Source: Clostridia bacterium
GTDB taxonomy: Bacteria; Bacillota; Clostridia; Oscillospirales; Acutalibacteraceae
Assembly (NCBI GenBank): GCA_017503135.1
Contig: JAFVTQ010000003.1
Span: 1 to 32,575 of the forward strand
Direction: 5' to 3'
Length of the DNA stretch: 32,575 nt
The translations under genes were made by a program, and so were the position numbers. Below the pieces are notes generated by a model, which did no database searches, was not told the DNA's origin, and saw only the letters and a list, made by a program, of their open reading frames with translations. Below, in pieces: positions 25,925 through 32,575 of this stretch. How positions within the stretch are numbered: the first letter of the stretch is position 1; every line of letters begins with the position of its first letter.

Positions 25925-26149
25925 CTATTCTGTTTTGGAAACTTTTGTTTTCTGTTCATAGATAAACACACTTATAAGAGCAAAGAGTGTGGTTATTGCC
26001 AGTTTCAAAGGCATCATATGAGTCATTGTTTCTGCAAAATACACTTCAGGAGAGGCAGAAAGTTTTATAGGGAAAAACATATAACTCAATAACACCCATG
26101 TTACCACAATAGTTATAAGCGCAACTAAAGATTTTTTCACTTTATCCAT
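25925..26149 (-). CDS. small two-helix membrane protein of the sigma operon
   Basis: A 74-residue protein beginning MDKVKKSLVALITIVVTWV, with two hydrophobic segments (about 8-26 and 46-64) and a basic, polar C-terminal tail (EQKTKVSKTE). The loop between the helices contains Met and His (MTHMMP). Start is uncertain: the ATG at 26149 has GGGAAGTGG just upstream, while the ATG at 26164 overlaps the beta-propeller stop (TGATG) without a ribosome site and would add MGSGI. Third gene of the sigma operon. Not recognised; its position suggests a membrane partner of the beta-propeller protein. Confidence 0.65.
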   Translation of the reverse strand: MDKVKKSLVALITIVVTWVLLSYMFFPIKLSASPEVYFAETMTHMMPLKLAITTLFALISVFIYEQKTKVSKTE

Positions 26150-26163
26150 TATGCCACTTCCCA

Positions 26164-28278
26164 TCAATACAAACTGATACGATTAATTTCTTCATTTGTA
26201 TCAAGGCTGAATGCGATTAACTGGAAACCATCGTTTTTATAGTCATTTATAATTGCGAAGAATGTGTCGCCCACATAAGTTCCGCCGAGAATATCACATT
26301 GCTCAGTAAGATTATATCTTGCAACTTCTTTGACTGTTCCATTGTCAATTTTATAGCGGATATAGAACGCATAGTTTGCATATTCATTATTCTGATACAC
26401 AAGTCTATAGAGGGTAAACGGTACTGCGAACTCGTTTTCAGAAAGTTTTACAAAGCATTTGTGATTGTATGCCACAGGGCTATGCACATTTGCACTACCA
26501 TTTGAAACTGTAACTTTTGATGCTTCAAAAGGCTTGTTAGGGTCACTCACATCAAAGAGAGAAATTTTGCAATCACCGTTTGTGCCTGACTCTGTGCCAT
26601 CCTGACCAACACCCACTAAAAGTGTATCTGTAATTGGATGAAGATATTCTGAAAAGCCCGTAATTTTAAGTTCACCTTTAACAGTTGGGTTTGCGGGGTC
26701 ACTTAAATCAATTACAAATAATGGGTCCGTCTGTCTAAATGTTACAACATAAGCTGTGTTACCGATATATCGAACAGATTGAATTGTTTCGCCTTTTGCA
26801 AGGTCTTCAACTTTGCCAACAATCTGCATTTGGTTGTTGAGAATATAAAGATTATTTGTTCTGCCGTCAATAGACATCCACATTGCGTCGCCATCAACAT
26901 TTGCATTGTTTTTTGTTGTTGCAATCTTGAAATGTTCACCGTCATAACTCATTGCAAACTGGTTTTTGATATAGCCTGGCACCTTGCCCATACACTTATA
27001 TTCAATGCCTGTTTCTGTGTATTCAAAACGATAGATTTTAGTGAATTCTTCTGCTTTTTCACTCCAGTCATTTTCACTTAAAAACATACCTTGTGAAGAC
27101 GCATAAAGATTGTCGCAGTTACCTAAAATTGCTTCGCTTTCAGGGGCTTTATCCGTTGAAATATCAAGGGTTGTAATCACCGCATAGGTTGATGATTTGC
27201 TGTCTTCAATTACAGAAATGCAACCTGCTGGAACAGGCTCACAAACGCCGTTTATTGTAGTTTCTGGAATGCAATAATCCTTGTAATCATCCCTTGCAAC
27301 ATTCACATAATAAGTGCTTACACAATAAAGCTTTGTGCCAATCATTCGCGAATTTTTATATTGACCCTGTTGTGAATATTCTGTCACAAGTTTAGGCTCT
27401 TTAACGTTGCTGATGTCATAAACTTTAACGAACAAATTGCCTATTCCATAAGCTATGTCCGCACCATAATAAACTCTTGAGCCAGAAGTTGTGTTTTCTT
27501 TTGTTTCGTCCTGTTTAAAATCATAAGCAGTACCAACGATTATAAGTGTTTTACCGTTGAGATAAATTTCTTGAATATCCGCATCAGCTTTAATCTCAAT
27601 CTGTGATATTTTTTCTAACTTGTTATCCTGAATATCAACAATAGAAACAACTGAATTGTTTCGTCTTGTTACATAGAGATATTTACCGTCAGTTTTGATA
27701 AGGTCACCCTCATCAACATCCTGCTCTTGAGTGTTGGTTGTGCCATAATTTCTGTTGTTTTCTGCATCGTCTGTTGTATTGCCAGCACTTGCACCTGGTT
27801 TAGCAGCAGTATCACTCGTTGCACTTTCGTTCATACTTTCATTCACAACACCACCTGTCGCCGAAGTGTTTCCAATATCTTCATAAAAATCATCTGCTGA
27901 TTCTGCATTGCCACTGAACATATAATAAATTCCGTTTTGCAATTTGGTTTTTTCTGCTTCCTTATGCAGAGTTTCAAATTTGCTATAAATTTTGTCATAG
28001 GACTGATATTGCATAACTTCTGTTATATCACCAGTCTCATTATTAAGTTTTTTGTTGAAACTACCGTTACCAAAAATGCTTAATAAACCGATTACCAACG
28101 CGAGAGATGCTGCAAGGGGTACGAGTTTTTTAAGTTTTTTAGATTTGTTTGGCTTTTCTATCACTTCAACTGTATTTTCTTTACTTTCAAGCATATCAAT
28201 AATATTGTCTTTTTCGAGTTCTCTGGGAAGTTTTACTTGCATTTTTTCGTTCAATGCATTTATTGTTTTTTTGCTCAT
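26164..28278 (-). CDS. membrane-anchored beta-propeller protein, candidate anti-sigma factor
   Basis: A 704-residue protein. A 51-residue charged cytoplasmic N-terminus is followed by one membrane helix (about 52-70), a Ser/Thr/Asn-rich external linker (about 120-185) and a large domain opening with QDVDEGDLIKTDGKYLYVTR, the hallmark of the secreted beta-propeller family PF09826, which fills residues 190-704. Repeated propeller blades can be seen (TLIIVGTAYDF, TAYVVTFRQTDPLFVIDLSD, FVKLSENEFAVPF). Its start codon overlaps the sigma gene by 4 bp, and inside-TM-outside topology directly after an ECF sigma is what an anti-sigma sensor looks like. The N-terminus matches no anti-sigma domain I know, so the role is inference. 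Confidence 0.85.
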   Translation of the reverse strand: MSKKTINALNEKMQVKLPRELEKDNIIDMLESKENTVEVIEKPNKSKKLKKLVPLAASLALVIGLLSIFGNGSFNKKLNNETGDITEVMQYQSYDKIYSKFETLHKEAEKTKLQNGIYYMFSGNAESADDFYEDIGNTSATGGVVNESMNESATSDTAAKPGASAGNTTDDAENNRNYGTTNTQEQDVDEGDLIKTDGKYLYVTRRNNSVVSIVDIQDNKLEKISQIEIKADADIQEIYLNGKTLIIVGTAYDFKQDETKENTTSGSRVYYGADIAYGIGNLFVKVYDISNVKEPKLVTEYSQQGQYKNSRMIGTKLYCVSTYYVNVARDDYKDYCIPETTINGVCEPVPAGCISVIEDSKSSTYAVITTLDISTDKAPESEAILGNCDNLYASSQGMFLSENDWSEKAEEFTKIYRFEYTETGIEYKCMGKVPGYIKNQFAMSYDGEHFKIATTKNNANVDGDAMWMSIDGRTNNLYILNNQMQIVGKVEDLAKGETIQSVRYIGNTAYVVTFRQTDPLFVIDLSDPANPTVKGELKITGFSEYLHPITDTLLVGVGQDGTESGTNGDCKISLFDVSDPNKPFEASKVTVSNGSANVHSPVAYNHKCFVKLSENEFAVPFTLYRLVYQNNEYANYAFYIRYKIDNGTVKEVARYNLTEQCDILGGTYVGDTFFAIINDYKNDGFQLIAFSLDTNEEINRISLY

Positions 28279-28775
28279 AAACTTAACTCCTCTCTCATTT
28301 TTTCTAATGCTCTTTTGTGTTTTGTTCTGACTGTATTTGCAGGAATTTTTAGCATTTCACCTATTTCACGGGATTTGAATCCACCTGCTATTGACAGCAT
28401 TAAAATCTGTCTTGAGTCTTCGTCGAGCCTTGACAATGCTTCACGGACAGGGATTGAAAATTCGATTTCACTATCCACATAACCTTCGTCTTCAAACTCA
28501 ACTATATGATAATTTTCTAAAAGCTTTCTTTTGCAAGTATTTGAAAGAGATGAAAAAAGATATGACTTGAATTTCTCGGGATTTTTGACCCCGTGAATAC
28601 TTTTGAAAACAGATAAAACTGTTTCTTGCACAGCATCTTGCGCATCAAAGGAATTTTTGCACATACTCAATGCAAAACGATACATATCGACAGAGTATAT
28701 CTCATAAAGAGTGCCGAATGCATCTTTATCCCCTGATATTGCAGAACGAACAAGCTTTTTCATTTCTTTTTTCAT
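28275..28775 (-). CDS. ECF-type RNA polymerase sigma factor
   Basis: A 166-residue two-domain sigma-70 factor. Region 2 covers about residues 8-75 (DAFGTLYEIYSVDMYRFALS, CKNSFDAQDAVQETVLSVFK) and region 4 about 108-162 (LSRLDEDSRQILMLSIAGGF, REIGEMLKIPANTVRTKHKR), where the last helix would read the -35 box. There is no region 1 or 3, as expected for ECF factors. GAGGTG precedes the ATG. The first gene of the operon; a GAAAC-containing sequence upstream could be its own target promoter. Likely held at the membrane by the next gene product until a signal arrives. Confidence 0.93.
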   Translation of the reverse strand: MKKEMKKLVRSAISGDKDAFGTLYEIYSVDMYRFALSMCKNSFDAQDAVQETVLSVFKSIHGVKNPEKFKSYLFSSLSNTCKRKLLENYHIVEFEDEGYVDSEIEFSIPVREALSRLDEDSRQILMLSIAGGFKSREIGEMLKIPANTVRTKHKRALEKMREELSL

Positions 28776-28875: not shown

Positions 28876-28907
28876 TAAAAAAATCCACCCGCAAAGCGAG
28901 TGGATTA
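28876..28907 (-). terminator. terminator of the acyl ligase/carrier protein operon
   Basis: AATCCACTC and GGGTGGATT (one G-U) form a 9-bp stem with a 7-nt loop, followed by seven Ts on the minus strand, 10 bp after the stop codon. Confidence 0.92.
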
Positions 28908-28916
28908 AAATAATTT

Positions 28917-29141
28917 TTATGCGTTTTTCTCAAGGAATTTAACAACATCGCCAACTGTTTTTATTTTCTTTACTGCTGAATTTGGAATATCAATATCAAA
29001 TTCATCCTCAAGACCACAAATAAGTTGGATGAAGCTTAATGATGTGAAGTCAAAATTTTTGTCAAGTCTTGTCTTTTCAGTAAAATTCAAATCATCACGA
29101 CCTGTCACTTCTGAAAATACTTTTTCAATTCTCTTAATCAT
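28917..29141 (-). CDS. acyl/peptidyl carrier protein
   Basis: A 74-residue free-standing carrier domain with the four-helix plan of ACPs. The phosphopantetheine site is Ser34 in FDFTSLSFIQL, where TSL replaces the common DSL. The segment LEDEFDIDIPNSAVKKIKTV is typical of helix III of carrier proteins. It lies 4 bp after the acyl ligase gene, so the ligase probably loads it, and the NRPS encoded in the opposite direction could take the acyl group from it. A housekeeping fatty-acid ACP is less likely because no fas gene is near and the DSL motif is changed. Confidence 0.9.
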   Translation of the reverse strand: MIKRIEKVFSEVTGRDDLNFTEKTRLDKNFDFTSLSFIQLICGLEDEFDIDIPNSAVKKIKTVGDVVKFLEKNA

Positions 29142-29145
29142 AGTT

Positions 29146-30864
29146 TTACCTCTTTTTTTCGTTCATATCTGCTGTAAGCTTTTTAAAATCAATTTTATTC
29201 ATTCTTGTTCTTGGTATTTCTTCTTTGAAAACTACCTCTCTTGGCATAGCATACTCTGCAATATTCTTTTTACAAGCATCTAAAATTCGGTCACGAAGTG
29301 CATCAAGGTCAGCGTTCATACTCATAGGTTGGACAACAGCAACTACACGTTGACCTACACTACGGTCTTCAATGCCAACTACACAACTTGCTGCAACACC
29401 GTTACAACCATTAATTACTTCTTCAATTTGTGTAGGATAGATATTATATCCAGCTGAAATAATCATTTTGCAATGTCTTAAGCGGTAGTATAAATACCCA
29501 TCTTCATCCACACAACCGATATCCCCGGTGTGAAGCCATATTTCACCATCTTCATGTATTTGCAATGCAAGTTTGGTTTCAACTTCGTTTTTATAATAGC
29601 CTTTCATAAGTGTCGGACCCGTGATACATATTTCACCATCTTCGCCACAAGGCAATTCCTTATGAGTACCAAACTCACATATTTTAATTTTATTGTCAGG
29701 AAGAGGCAAGCCAGTGCTGCCATATTTGTGGCCAAAAAACGGACTTATGCAAGCAGCTGAAAGACATTCTGTAAGCCCATAAGCTTCTGTCATCTGTTCT
29801 GATGAACCACCATTTTTGAGATATTTATTCATTCTCTTATGAAGTTTGTCACTCATTTTGTCACCTGAAAACGCAACCATTTCAAGAAATGACAAATCTT
29901 GCTTTTCAATTTCTTCTGAACGCGAGAGTGCTTCAAACAAAGCAGGTACAGCATAAACGTGATTAATTTTATTTTTGAAAATAAGTTTTGTGCAAGCTTT
30001 AAAATCAAATTTTGGAACAAGAAATACTTGCATGCCGAAATAAAGCATTGTATGCATACACATAGCAAGTCCAAAGCCATGGAAAACAGGCATCAATGCA
30101 AGCGCTTTTTTCCCCGCAGCATCTTTTGTGTTATCGCGTTTAATTTCTTCTGCCTGAACAGCCATACAGTTAAATGCACGATTATGAATCATTGCGCCTT
30201 TAGGAATGCCCGTTGTGCCTCCGCTATAAAGAATTGCTGCAATATCATCGCCTTTGCCGTCATCAACAGGTAATTCTTCTTTTCTTTGTTTGCCACGCTT
30301 TAAAAAATCATTCCAATAAATGATGTTATGATTTGAATTAAAATCCAAATCCAACTTGTTTTTGAGCAAATAAAGCGGTTTGAGATAAATGGGAAGAGCA
30401 TCAGCTATTCTTGCAAGCACGATAACAGGTTTTTCTGTAGTTTCCCATTCTACATCGGCAAGTTTTGGATAAAGCATATCAAAAGTGATAATCGCCTTGC
30501 TATCAACATGCTCAACAAACTTTTTGATTTCGTTTGCAGAAAGCAAAGGGTGAATCATATTTGCAATCGCACCCATTCGATTGATTGCGTAAACAGAAAT
30601 CAATGCTTGCGGTGTGTTTGGAGCAACAACAGATACAAAATCACCTTTTTTAACTCCACTTGAAATCAATGCCTGCGCAACAGTTTCAATTGTTGCAATC
30701 ATTTGTGAAAATGTTATTTTTTTGTTATTAAAATTAAGAGCATAATAATCAGGATACTTTTCTGCAGTTTCTTTTAAAAGTGAAACCATTGAAAATTCAG
30801 GATATTCGTCTCTGAAATTTTCGGGAGCATGATTATCGCTCCAGATATTGCGCTTTCTTTCCAT
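29146..30864 (-). CDS. fatty-acyl AMP ligase / acyl-CoA synthetase
   Basis: A 572-residue member of the ANL superfamily that activates a carboxylic acid with ATP. Motifs are the phosphate loop YSGGTTGIPKG (213-223), TEAYGLTE (359-366), HTGD (445-448) and the C-terminal catalytic Lys557 in RTRMNKIDF. It lines up with long-chain acyl-CoA synthetases more than with NRPS A-domains. Cotranscribed with a carrier protein and divergent from an NRPS, it most likely activates the fatty acid that caps the peptide, loading either CoA or the carrier. A general fatty-acid degradation role is less likely because no beta-oxidation gene is near. Confidence 0.9.
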   Translation of the reverse strand: MERKRNIWSDNHAPENFRDEYPEFSMVSLLKETAEKYPDYYALNFNNKKITFSQMIATIETVAQALISSGVKKGDFVSVVAPNTPQALISVYAINRMGAIANMIHPLLSANEIKKFVEHVDSKAIITFDMLYPKLADVEWETTEKPVIVLARIADALPIYLKPLYLLKNKLDLDFNSNHNIIYWNDFLKRGKQRKEELPVDDGKGDDIAAILYSGGTTGIPKGAMIHNRAFNCMAVQAEEIKRDNTKDAAGKKALALMPVFHGFGLAMCMHTMLYFGMQVFLVPKFDFKACTKLIFKNKINHVYAVPALFEALSRSEEIEKQDLSFLEMVAFSGDKMSDKLHKRMNKYLKNGGSSEQMTEAYGLTECLSAACISPFFGHKYGSTGLPLPDNKIKICEFGTHKELPCGEDGEICITGPTLMKGYYKNEVETKLALQIHEDGEIWLHTGDIGCVDEDGYLYYRLRHCKMIISAGYNIYPTQIEEVINGCNGVAASCVVGIEDRSVGQRVVAVVQPMSMNADLDALRDRILDACKKNIAEYAMPREVVFKEEIPRTRMNKIDFKKLTADMNEKKR

Positions 30865-30926
30865 TTATCAAATCACCTCTTAAATACAAATCACTTCTGT
30901 ACTTTAGTTCCAAAAGCAATTGATTA

Positions 30927-30955
30927 ATTATATCACACCATTCTTTTAAAAACAA
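30927..30955 (-). promoter_or_regulatory. promoter of the acyl ligase/carrier protein operon
   Basis: An extended -10 (TGATATAAT, TATAAT at 30927-30932) with a weak -35, TTGTTT (30950-30955), at 17-bp spacing. GTACTTTA (30899-30906) and TAAAGTAC (30969-30976) form a distant inverted repeat around it. Confidence 0.7.
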
Positions 30956-31041
30956 TAGTACACATTGATAAAGTACGAAAAGCCATTCTTTTTTTCAACA
31001 AATATCGTAATATTTACCAACTTCGAATTGCGTCGAAATTC

Positions 31042-31070
31042 TTGACATAATGTATAATAATATATATAAT
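31042..31070 (+). promoter_or_regulatory. perfect sigma-A consensus promoter of the NRPS gene
   Basis: TTGACA (31042-31047), 17-bp spacer, TATAAT (31065-31070), about 70 bp before the start codon. A TTCGA/TCGAA inverted repeat (31022-31037) lies just upstream of the -35. A strong constitutive-type promoter is unusual for a biosynthetic gene unless a repressor acts on it. Confidence 0.92.
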
Positions 31071-31141
31071 TACCTATGTATATTTAATTTTATAATAGGA
31101 AAATTATTCGCATAAAAGCCAATCTGCAAGGAGCAAACAAA

Positions 31142-32575
31142 ATGAAGTTTAAACTCACATCTTCACAAAAGAATTTTTACAATAAAAATTTCACTCTGGA
31201 CAGTCAAATCTGGAATCAGGGTGTTATGGAAACGTTTCCAAAAATATATTCCTATGAGGAAATTAATAACGCTTATAACAAACTTGTTGAAACTCATGAT
31301 AGTCTTCGCGTAAAACTTGTTGAAACAGACGATGGCATTGTTGCTGATGTTAGAGAACACGAATATATAAATTATCGTTTTTGGCAAGTTGAAACTGAAG
31401 AAGAGCTTATGCAAAAAGCTCAAGATTTTCTTAACGAGCCCATCGACCGTTATGGGCTTTTGGTTAACTGTGCAGTCTTTCAGACACCAACAACTTCGGG
31501 CTTTATGATTAACGCTCACCATATTGTTATTGATGGTTTTAGTGCAATAGCTATGGCTTCTCATGTGAACGAGTTTTTAAAAGATGAAAACTTCGCACCT
31601 GAAGTACAAAAATATGCCGATTATGTTGAAACTGAAGAAAAGCACAAGCAATCTCGTCGTTATGCAAAATCTCAAGAATTTTGGCTCAAAGAATTTTCAA
31701 TTCAACCTGATTGCAATATTGTTCCAGCATCTACAAAATCATTAGATTTCTCCTCATCAGAATCAAATCACAATATTTCATCAGAACTGATTAATAATAT
31801 CAAAGACTTCTGTGCAATCAATGATATTTCAATTACAACATTTTTCAATACAGTTTTGTCAATTTATTTATCTCGAAAGTATGAAACTCAAAAACTTACC
31901 ATCGGTACTCCCGTCCTCAACAGAACTTCTGCATTAGAGTTCAACACAGTTGGACTTTATATGCATCTTTTGCCGTTAATTGTAAACCTTTCTGACGATA
32001 CTTTTTTAGAAAATGCAAAACAAATCGAAGATTTTCAACTCAATTTGTTCAGACATCAAAAATTTACACAGAATGATATAAAAGAATTGCTCAAAGAAAA
32101 TGGCAAGGAGCAAAACAATCTCTTTGATGTTGCTTTTAATTATCAAGAATTTGATAAAAATGATGAATATCAGTTTGTTTTTAGATATAGCAATTATCTT
32201 TCACTTCCGTTAGAAATTCACTTGCACCAATTCAATGGTGAAAACCACAACCTCAAAATTCGTTACAGAACCGCTATGTTCGACAAGCAGGAAATTGAGA
32301 TTATGTTGAAATCTATAGTTACACTAGCAGAAAAAGTTCTTGAAAACTATGATAAAAACATTAATGAAATCGAAATGATTTCGACTGACGAAAAAGAAGA
32401 AGTTATCTCATCATTCAATGATACAGAACATACATACGATATATCTGCAAATACAACCTTGTATTCTCTTTTTGAAACTGCAAGTGAAGAAAACAAAGAC
32501 AAAGTATGTATCAAAGCAAATGGAGAAGAAATATCATTTGGTGACTTCAAAGCATATGCTGAAAGAATTGATAAC
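31142..32575 (+). CDS. nonribosomal peptide synthetase, N-terminal part (C domain and start of A domain)
   Basis: An open frame of 478 codons that runs off the window with no stop. The ATG has AAGGAG 8 nt upstream. Residues 1-420 are a condensation domain: LTSSQKNFY near the start, HDSLRV, and catalytic HHIVIDG with His126-His127 and Asp131-Gly132, then TIGTPVLNR and NTVGLYMHLLPL. From about 425 an adenylation domain begins (VISSFNDTEHTYDISANTTL, GEEISFGDFKAYAERI). An NRPS that opens with a C domain usually accepts an acyl group from another protein, here probably the carrier protein encoded divergently, so an N-acyl peptide is expected. Amino-acid specificity lies beyond the window. Confidence 0.93.
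   Translation, partial: MKFKLTSSQKNFYNKNFTLDSQIWNQGVMETFPKIYSYEEINNAYNKLVETHDSLRVKLVETDDGIVADVREHEYINYRFWQVETEEELMQKAQDFLNEPIDRYGLLVNCAVFQTPTTSGFMINAHHIVIDGFSAIAMASHVNEFLKDENFAPEVQKYADYVETEEKHKQSRRYAKSQEFWLKEFSIQPDCNIVPASTKSLDFSSSESNHNISSELINNIKDFCAINDISITTFFNTVLSIYLSRKYETQKLTIGTPVLNRTSALEFNTVGLYMHLLPLIVNLSDDTFLENAKQIEDFQLNLFRHQKFTQNDIKELLKENGKEQNNLFDVAFNYQEFDKNDEYQFVFRYSNYLSLPLEIHLHQFNGENHNLKIRYRTAMFDKQEIEIMLKSIVTLAEKVLENYDKNINEIEMISTDEKEEVISSFNDTEHTYDISANTTLYSLFETASEENKDKVCIKANGEEISFGDFKAYAERIDN

Follow-up and report, generated by a model that had tools for sequence, protein, structure and literature searches.

A divergent acyl ligase, carrier protein and condensation-domain locus in a gut-type clostridial genome as the possible start of a beta-lactone lipopeptide pathway

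What does the nonribosomal peptide synthetase (NRPS) locus at the right-hand end of contig JAFVTQ010000003.1 of Clostridia bacterium (Acutalibacteraceae; assembly GCA_017503135.1) make? The stretch analysed, hereafter the window, spans positions 1 to 32,575 of this contig and closes on the beginning of an NRPS gene, next to genes for an acyl ligase and an acyl carrier protein (ACP). Because the contig ends at position 32575, inside the NRPS gene, the locus is not extendable in this assembly, and a search of the window's genome (1.2 Mb, 75% complete) with the rest of a relative's NRPS as query found no continuation. Drawing on relatives that carry the same locus, we propose, as an evenly balanced judgement, that it is the start of a lipo-NRPS making an N-acyl-serine or N-acyl-peptidyl-serine beta-lactone.

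The first-pass annotation of this DNA had described an acyl ligase and a carrier protein divergent from an NRPS whose first domain is a condensation (C) domain. The open reading frames and Pfam matches confirm this arrangement, with carrier protein, ligase and C domain all scoring above their cut-offs. The core features are as follows.

28917..29141, minus strand: stand-alone ACP, 74 aa (open reading frame; PF00550 PP-binding, 39.7 bits, cut-off 20.8)
29040..29042, minus strand: codon of ACP Ser34, predicted from the protein family to bear the phosphopantetheine, in the context TSL where DSL is usual
29146..30864, minus strand: acyl (fatty acid) adenylating ligase, 572 aa (open reading frame; Pfam AMP-binding, 265 bits, and AMP-binding_C, 57 bits)
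31142..32575, plus strand: beginning of the NRPS gene, 478 aa, cut off by the contig end (open reading frame)
31151..32401, plus strand: N-terminal C domain, starter-like (PF00668, 176 bits, residues 4-420; tree)
31517..31537, plus strand: C-domain catalytic motif HHIVIDG (sequence)
32402..32575, plus strand: first 58 residues of adenylation (A) domain 1, probably of serine-type lineage, with the substrate pocket outside the window

The ligase-ACP pair lies divergent from the same NRPS in L012, L013, L014, L015, L016 and L017, with differing outer neighbours, and this recurrence indicates that the layout is more than chance. Ligase, ACP and NRPS also share one locus in L021, L022, L062, L063, L064 and L065. 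Six named relatives are Clostridia metagenome-assembled genomes from ruminant cecum, colon or rectum, in keeping with the gut-type clostridial genome assumed earlier. Among the 39 genomes of the genus, the window's own included, seven (again counting the window's) carry this C domain, and the same seven encode a ligase with more than 50% identity to that of the window, the best value elsewhere being 41%. Across the wider family, the C domain finds a match of any strength in 68 of 398 genomes, and for the most part its identity is low. Ser34 of the ACP is invariant in all 12 aligned rows (the window ACP and its relatives) and is preceded by Thr, Ser or Asn rather than the usual Asp; the ACP motif is present in 12/12 loci of the window's C-domain clade. 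The window's genome also encodes a candidate phosphopantetheinyl transferase of 170 aa, Sfp-like and matching PF01648 over cut-off (contig C4, L031:1465-1977). Genes of 170-171 aa near the thioesterase (TE) ends in L086 (2751-3266) and L087 (5723-6235) resemble this candidate by eye.

The identity of the C domain was addressed with a tree of 49 C-type domains, in which subtype labels derive from domain order and motifs and which was built without biochemically characterised starter domains. The window's C domain falls in a 12-row clade of N-terminal C domains (support 100/100) that is sister (100/98) to five other N-terminal C domains from the same bacterial family. Four last-module C domains join the DCL-like domains of Bacilli (99/97), the E-like domains form a group of their own (100/100), and the internal C domains adjoin LCL-like domains of Bacilli with weak support (85/62). 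An LCL or DCL nature of the window's C domain is rejected, as the tree places it outside the internal, DCL-like and E-like groups, and a starter-like type, as suggested earlier, fits this phylogeny. Its catalytic motif is intact, HHIVIDG fitting HHxxxDG.

Lipoinitiation by ligase, ACP and N-terminal C domain, as the first-pass annotation had read the three genes, is well supported, because the C domain groups with N-terminal C domains and because ligase, carrier and C domain travel together. Were the ligase and ACP instead to act outside the NRPS pathway, with the NRPS drawing its starter from free acyl-CoA or from an upstream peptidyl donor encoded on another contig, the three genes would hardly be expected to stay together in the loci listed above despite their differing outer neighbours, nor the more-than-50%-identity ligase to occur in the genus only where the NRPS does. 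This alternative, which we consider very unlikely, draws on the description of starter C domains as typically accepting acyl-CoA (PMC13142362) and on an ACP that departs from the usual Asp before its serine; the C domain, in turn, lies outside the internal and DCL-like groups and is the single C-domain match in the window's genome, where no upstream NRPS module was seen. The steps up to the N-acyl chain would then follow from gene content under lipoinitiation: the ligase would activate what is probably a fatty acid as acyl-AMP and load the acyl chain on the ACP, and the N-terminal C domain would move this chain to an amino acid, probably serine, on the first module.

The serine assignment in the window draws on the start of its first A domain. 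These residues (about 60) were scored against 28 A-domain starts, 12 of them serine-type. Eleven of the 12 scored 89-186, above the highest value among the 16 others (67), and the window NRPS most likely begins C-A(Ser). It could be a one-module enzyme like those of L065 and L091, or a longer one. Identity between the window and L012 is 56-100% over the C domain (30-residue windows) and 21-30% after residue 420, whereas against the more distant L016 it is 60-75% after residue 420. This pattern suggests that the A domain was exchanged at the C-A linker (window position 32402 onwards) relative to L012. Reading the window's product from L012 was accordingly rejected, the first A domain of L012 being of a different lineage.

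The window's own release domain, presumably a TE, lies off the contig, and the evidence on release comes from relatives. The NRPSs of L014 (2250 aa) and L015 (2251 aa) are C-A-T-C-A-T-TE; L021 shows the same motif order with the TE in the same open reading frame, and in L063 the NRPS continues in a second protein, encoded by the next open reading frame, that ends in a TE. Complete one-module C-A(Ser)-T-TE enzymes of 1252 aa each occur in L065, where the T domain is a motif match only, and in L091, where the TE falls below the Pfam cut-off. Within the genus, each of the six other genomes that carry the C domain has a strong TE match (E 2e-75 or better), as against 0/32 of those that lack it, where a single weak match (4e-4) lies in G032; of the 398 genomes of the wider family, seven have a TE match, a strong one in five cases. 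Each of the other 11 sequences in the C-domain clade stems from a genome that holds a TE whose nucleophile is cysteine, the C domain and TE being linked by a readable NRPS end in L014, L015, L021 and L063, and by genome rather than by one contig for the other seven.

These architectures bear directly on the earlier comparison with gut Ruminococcus NRPSs that make N-acyl peptide aldehydes, which did not survive: the readable ends of the clade (L014, L015, L021 and L063) are Cys TEs, no reductase was found at any of them, and the genomes of the other members hold that TE, so that an aldehyde product is rejected for this clade. Reductase-ended NRPSs were found, among the loci examined, only in L066 (two) and L067, which belong to the same bacterial family, the reductase call resting on Pfam for one L066 protein and on motif for the others. 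Their two readable N-terminal C domains fall in the sister clade of the window's, and both last A-domain codes read from the three NRPSs are non-serine. That such enzymes exist in this family, and that A domains appear exchanged within the group, leaves some room for a window NRPS that itself ends in a reductase and yields an N-acyl peptide aldehyde; set against the Cys-TE genomes of all 11 other clade members and the readable ends without reductase, this is the least probable of the alternatives we considered.

The TEs of the relatives share a distinctive set of residues. In an alignment of 14 (alignment A1), the Cys nucleophile and the triad Asp and His are invariant, the nucleophile context is His-Cys-(Ala/Val) in 13/14, and Gly occupies the position of ObiF1 Gly1173 in 13/14. 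PDB matches include RifR (6e-5, the best) and ObiF1 (5e-4), and residue correspondence to ObiF1 was taken from the PDB-match alignment, with a 20-residue numbering offset allowed for. ObiF1 is described as using Cys1146, Asp1254 and His1284, with Gly1173 replacing the usual Asp and the Asp moved to a RifR-like place (PMC6668435), and the TE of SulM as having a Cys nucleophile and an Asp place in common with ObiF1 (PMC11298585). A stand-alone plasmid TE included for contrast (L101) has a Ser nucleophile.

The substrate meanings given to A-domain codes here are putative. The A domain before the TE reads DVWH(F/I)S(L/F)VDK in all ten full codes, that is, DVWHFSLVDK or one letter off, and DVWHFSLVDK is what we take to be the serine code, that of EntF. 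A partial code in L086 (FSLVDK) agrees with the serine type, and the pocket lies outside the sequence of L084, L085 and L087 (3/14 unreadable). The motif QIK(L/I)NGQRIE is found in 12 of the 14 A domains before a Cys TE, the A end of L087 among them; it was rejected as a serine marker, an internal serine-coded A domain of L023 having no such motif.

By analogy with ObiF1, the last module in relatives of the same C-domain clade would load serine, the fused ObiF1-type TE would take the chain onto its Cys nucleophile, and attack of the serine hydroxyl on the carbonyl would release a beta-lactone; ring closure is suggested by the ObiF1 residues together with the terminal serine. The same lipo-NRPS might instead carry a Cys TE that only hydrolyses, giving an open N-acyl-serine or N-acyl-peptidyl-serine that could serve as a lipoamino acid, surfactant or signal. 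The TE does resemble a type II hydrolase, RifR, which is its strongest PDB match, and N-acyl amino acids as well as glycine-serine lipids appear in literature on Bacteroidetes and gut-associated bacteria. We nevertheless regard simple hydrolysis as unlikely, though a serious contender: the Cys is invariant, the Asp sits in the position common to ObiF1 and SulM, and a terminal beta-hydroxy residue is needless for a hydrolase. Changing the ObiF1 Cys to Ser is reported to give dominant hydrolysis (PMC6668435), and the retained Cys therefore favours cyclisation.

A third outcome, an enterobactin-like oligoester in which several N-acyl-seryl units are joined via their serine hydroxyls and cyclised, is prompted by EntF, which ends in serine (code DVWHFSLVDK) and releases via a TE. 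The intermediates of EntF and ObiF1 are described as differing in the hydroxy amino acid only (PMC6668435). The triad Asp of EntF, however, lies on beta-strand 5, where the relatives have Gly (13/14), their Asp being in the RifR/ObiF1 place, and we judge an EntF-like TE decidedly improbable.

Several observations weigh against beta-lactone formation by the window's NRPS. No TE match was found in the window's genome, which is 75% complete, and the serine assignment there draws on about 60 residues that exclude the substrate pocket; the twelfth serine-type start, moreover, scores 37 in that comparison, below the best non-serine start (67). In L012, whose C domain is the closest to that of the window, the first A domain is of another kind (DITQLGIIWK) and the second is Asn-like. 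The TE match to ObiF1 is weak (23 bits), and although the TEs of L015, L065 and L090 exceed the PF00975 cut-off, two others, in L014 and L091, fall below it. The uncharacterised AB3403 is reported to have a Cys nucleophile as well, with its Asp in the usual place (PMC11298585). The counts given here are also of genomes, not of independent events. Finally, a Cys nucleophile need not be paired with a hydroxy residue: plasmid Cys TEs follow a beta-hydroxy code in 2/5 cases.

These plasmid cases come from a search in which 15 records matched and six of these were examined; five of the six carry more distant Cys TEs, whose terminal codes are those of Ser in L099 and Thr in L100, Asp-like in L097 and L098, and unassigned in L102. 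L096, from another family and the one genome of 394 found in an order-wide search, has the terminal code DFWNIGMVHK before a GHCVG TE, and we take this code to be that of threonine, on which its terminal residue is again a beta-hydroxy amino acid. Cys TE and beta-hydroxy residue thus go together without exception in the clostridial set and only in part elsewhere. The Cys-TE NRPSs of L096 (11117-18097) and L100 (a Caballeronia plasmid), both ending in a threonine-coded A domain, are further beta-lactone candidates. As for the first A domain of L012, the code nearest to DITQLGIIWK (8/10 positions) is DILQLGLIWK, presumably glycine, and glycine is one possible reading of DITQ(I/L)GI(V/I)WK, but this code also occurs in the reductase-ended relatives.

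More broadly, and with somewhat less confidence than we place in the window's own product, we suggest that ruminant hindgut Clostridia make lipid beta-lactones via compact lipo-NRPSs, some of a single C-A(Ser)-T-TE module. Alongside the peptide aldehydes of the gut, these lipids would be a second reactive lipopeptide class, one that would have arisen in related NRPSs by exchange of A and release domains, and beta-alanine may enter some of the products. Among the titles and abstract openings listed for open-licence PMC papers, none dealt with beta-lactone-forming lipo-NRPSs in gut Clostridia, which is weak evidence of absence.

The mention of beta-alanine stems from panD (aspartate 1-decarboxylase), found at the locus in 7 of 12 C-domain-clade loci, counting L013/L020 as one, at the following positions.

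L012:9358-9741, panD
L013:7313-7708, panD
L015:5315-5698, panD
L016:9347-9730, panD
L017:7265-7648, panD
L021:16717-17043, panD
L022:4475-4939, panD

Within the available sequence, panD was not seen in the window or in L014, L062, L063 and L064. It matches TIGR00223 over cut-off in L015 and six genus genomes, and within the genus it occurs in exactly the six other NRPS-bearing genomes of 39. A role in pantothenate supply is argued against: panC is absent from all 39 genus genomes and panD is confined to NRPS-bearing ones, so its beta-alanine is unlikely to feed pantothenate by the usual route and may enter the product instead. Among the A-domain codes, none was seen to be shared by the panD-bearing loci and missing from the others.

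Other genes accompany subsets of these loci. Of the 14 TE-bearing NRPSs, 11 have nearby a gene for an Lgt-like membrane protein, which may serve in tailoring or in immunity.

L014:16795-17646, Lgt-like gene (PF01790 over cut-off)
L015:12741-13667, Lgt-like gene (below NCBIfam lgt cut-offs)
L021:5528-6394, Lgt-like gene (PF01790 over cut-off)
L065:14275-15075, Lgt-like gene (below NCBIfam lgt cut-offs)
L084:8959-9882, Lgt-like gene (PF01790 over cut-off)
L085:3314-4240, Lgt-like by position and look only
L086:1730-2680, Lgt-like gene (below NCBIfam lgt cut-offs)
L088:9631-10491, Lgt-like by position and look only
L089:3111-4025, Lgt-like by position and look only
L090:2301-3161, Lgt-like by position and look only
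L091:2689-3507, Lgt-like gene (PF01790 over cut-off)

In a sub-branch of loci, the ACP and the NRPS are separated by two small genes (L021:13328-14490 and L064:3064-4223); in L021 these encode a 220-aa protein with a weak flavodoxin-fold match below the Pfam cut-off and a 170-aa protein without a match.

Counting the window, six of the seven genus assemblies with the locus are interrupted within an A domain or where one begins. In G011, G012, G014 and G015 the TE stands at another contig end, and the NRPS of G026 is broken in the same manner; repeated A domains may explain such breaks. In G012, the A end beside the TE (L087) differs from the end of the second A domain of L012 (79/108 identical), which suggests three or more A domains in this genome.

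Around the core genes of the window, the following signals were read.

28882..28906, minus strand: terminator-like hairpin just 3' of the ACP gene (11 pairs, 6 G-C, T tail; consensus match only)
31042..31070, plus strand: sigma-70 promoter sequence TTGACA-17-TATAAT upstream of the NRPS start (12/12 consensus positions; consensus match only)
31128..31133, plus strand: putative ribosome-binding site AAGGAG before the NRPS start codon (read from sequence)

The hairpin would close a two-gene ligase-ACP unit. Promoter-like matches in the region number 15, where shuffling gives a mean of 10.3 (sd 3.4), and terminator-like matches two, where it gives 1.3; because neither count is clearly above chance, only the perfect promoter match is notable. 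Just past the ACP terminator, positions 25925-28775 hold an ECF sigma factor gene and, after it, one for a beta-propeller protein of 704 aa (PF09826, 443 bits); an 80-aa protein encoded in the same interval has no Pfam match. These genes look like a unit separate from the lipo-NRPS locus.

A beta-lactone is an electrophile able to acylate hydrolases. Obafluorin is reported to inhibit a tRNA synthetase covalently (PMC9880928), and the gut lipopeptide aldehydes are described as potent protease inhibitors (PMC8518294). If our proposal is true, N-acyl-serine beta-lactones would offer a compact route, open to direct testing, to reactive lipids with microbial or host enzymes as their targets, and the one-module versions (one 1252-aa protein, ligase and ACP) are small enough for quick reconstitution.

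Among known systems, the obafluorin synthetase ObiF/ObiF1 offers the closest parallel to the relatives, which share with it a terminal beta-hydroxy amino acid, an N-acyl donor and a fused Cys TE (PMC6668435), the TEs being alike in the RifR-like place of the Asp and the Gly in the usual Asp place. ObiF1 uses 2,3-dihydroxybenzoate, in contrast to the fatty-acyl ligase, stand-alone ACP and starter-like C domain predicted here, and beta-hydroxyhomophenylalanine in place of serine; the hosts here are gut Clostridia, and an MbtH-like domain is not among the Pfam matches of L014, L015, L065, L090 and L091. The monobactam TE of SulM likewise shares the Cys nucleophile and the Asp position, and differs in its Gln-Cys-Asn motif and in diaminopropionate (PMC11298585), against His-Cys-(Ala/Val) and serine here. 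The ruminopeptin cluster rup (BGC0001686) and the other NRPSs for gut N-acyl dipeptide aldehydes, whose products are described as N-octanoyl-Met-Phe-H and, for ruminopeptin, an N-acylated Leu-Glu aldehyde (PMC8518294), are also lipo-NRPSs of gut Clostridia, whereas the readable relatives in the window's clade end in serine and then a Cys TE, not a reductase. The Oaa system of Coprococcus eutactus (OaaA, OaaACP and OaaC), another gut clostridium, similarly feeds a C domain from a separate ligase and ACP (PMC13142362). OaaC, however, is described as standing alone, using free amines and carrying a (D/H)HxxxDS motif, C domains of fatty acid amide pathways, which are nearest to starter C domains, most often having a motif that ends in DS or DA (PMC13142362), and this description sets it apart from the window's C domain with its HHIVIDG motif and fused A domain. 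In the lipopeptide NRPSs of CDA and A54145, finally, an ACP hands the acyl chain to a starter C domain (PMC7804268), as proposed for the window; the relatives described here differ from these in having one to three modules and another release domain.

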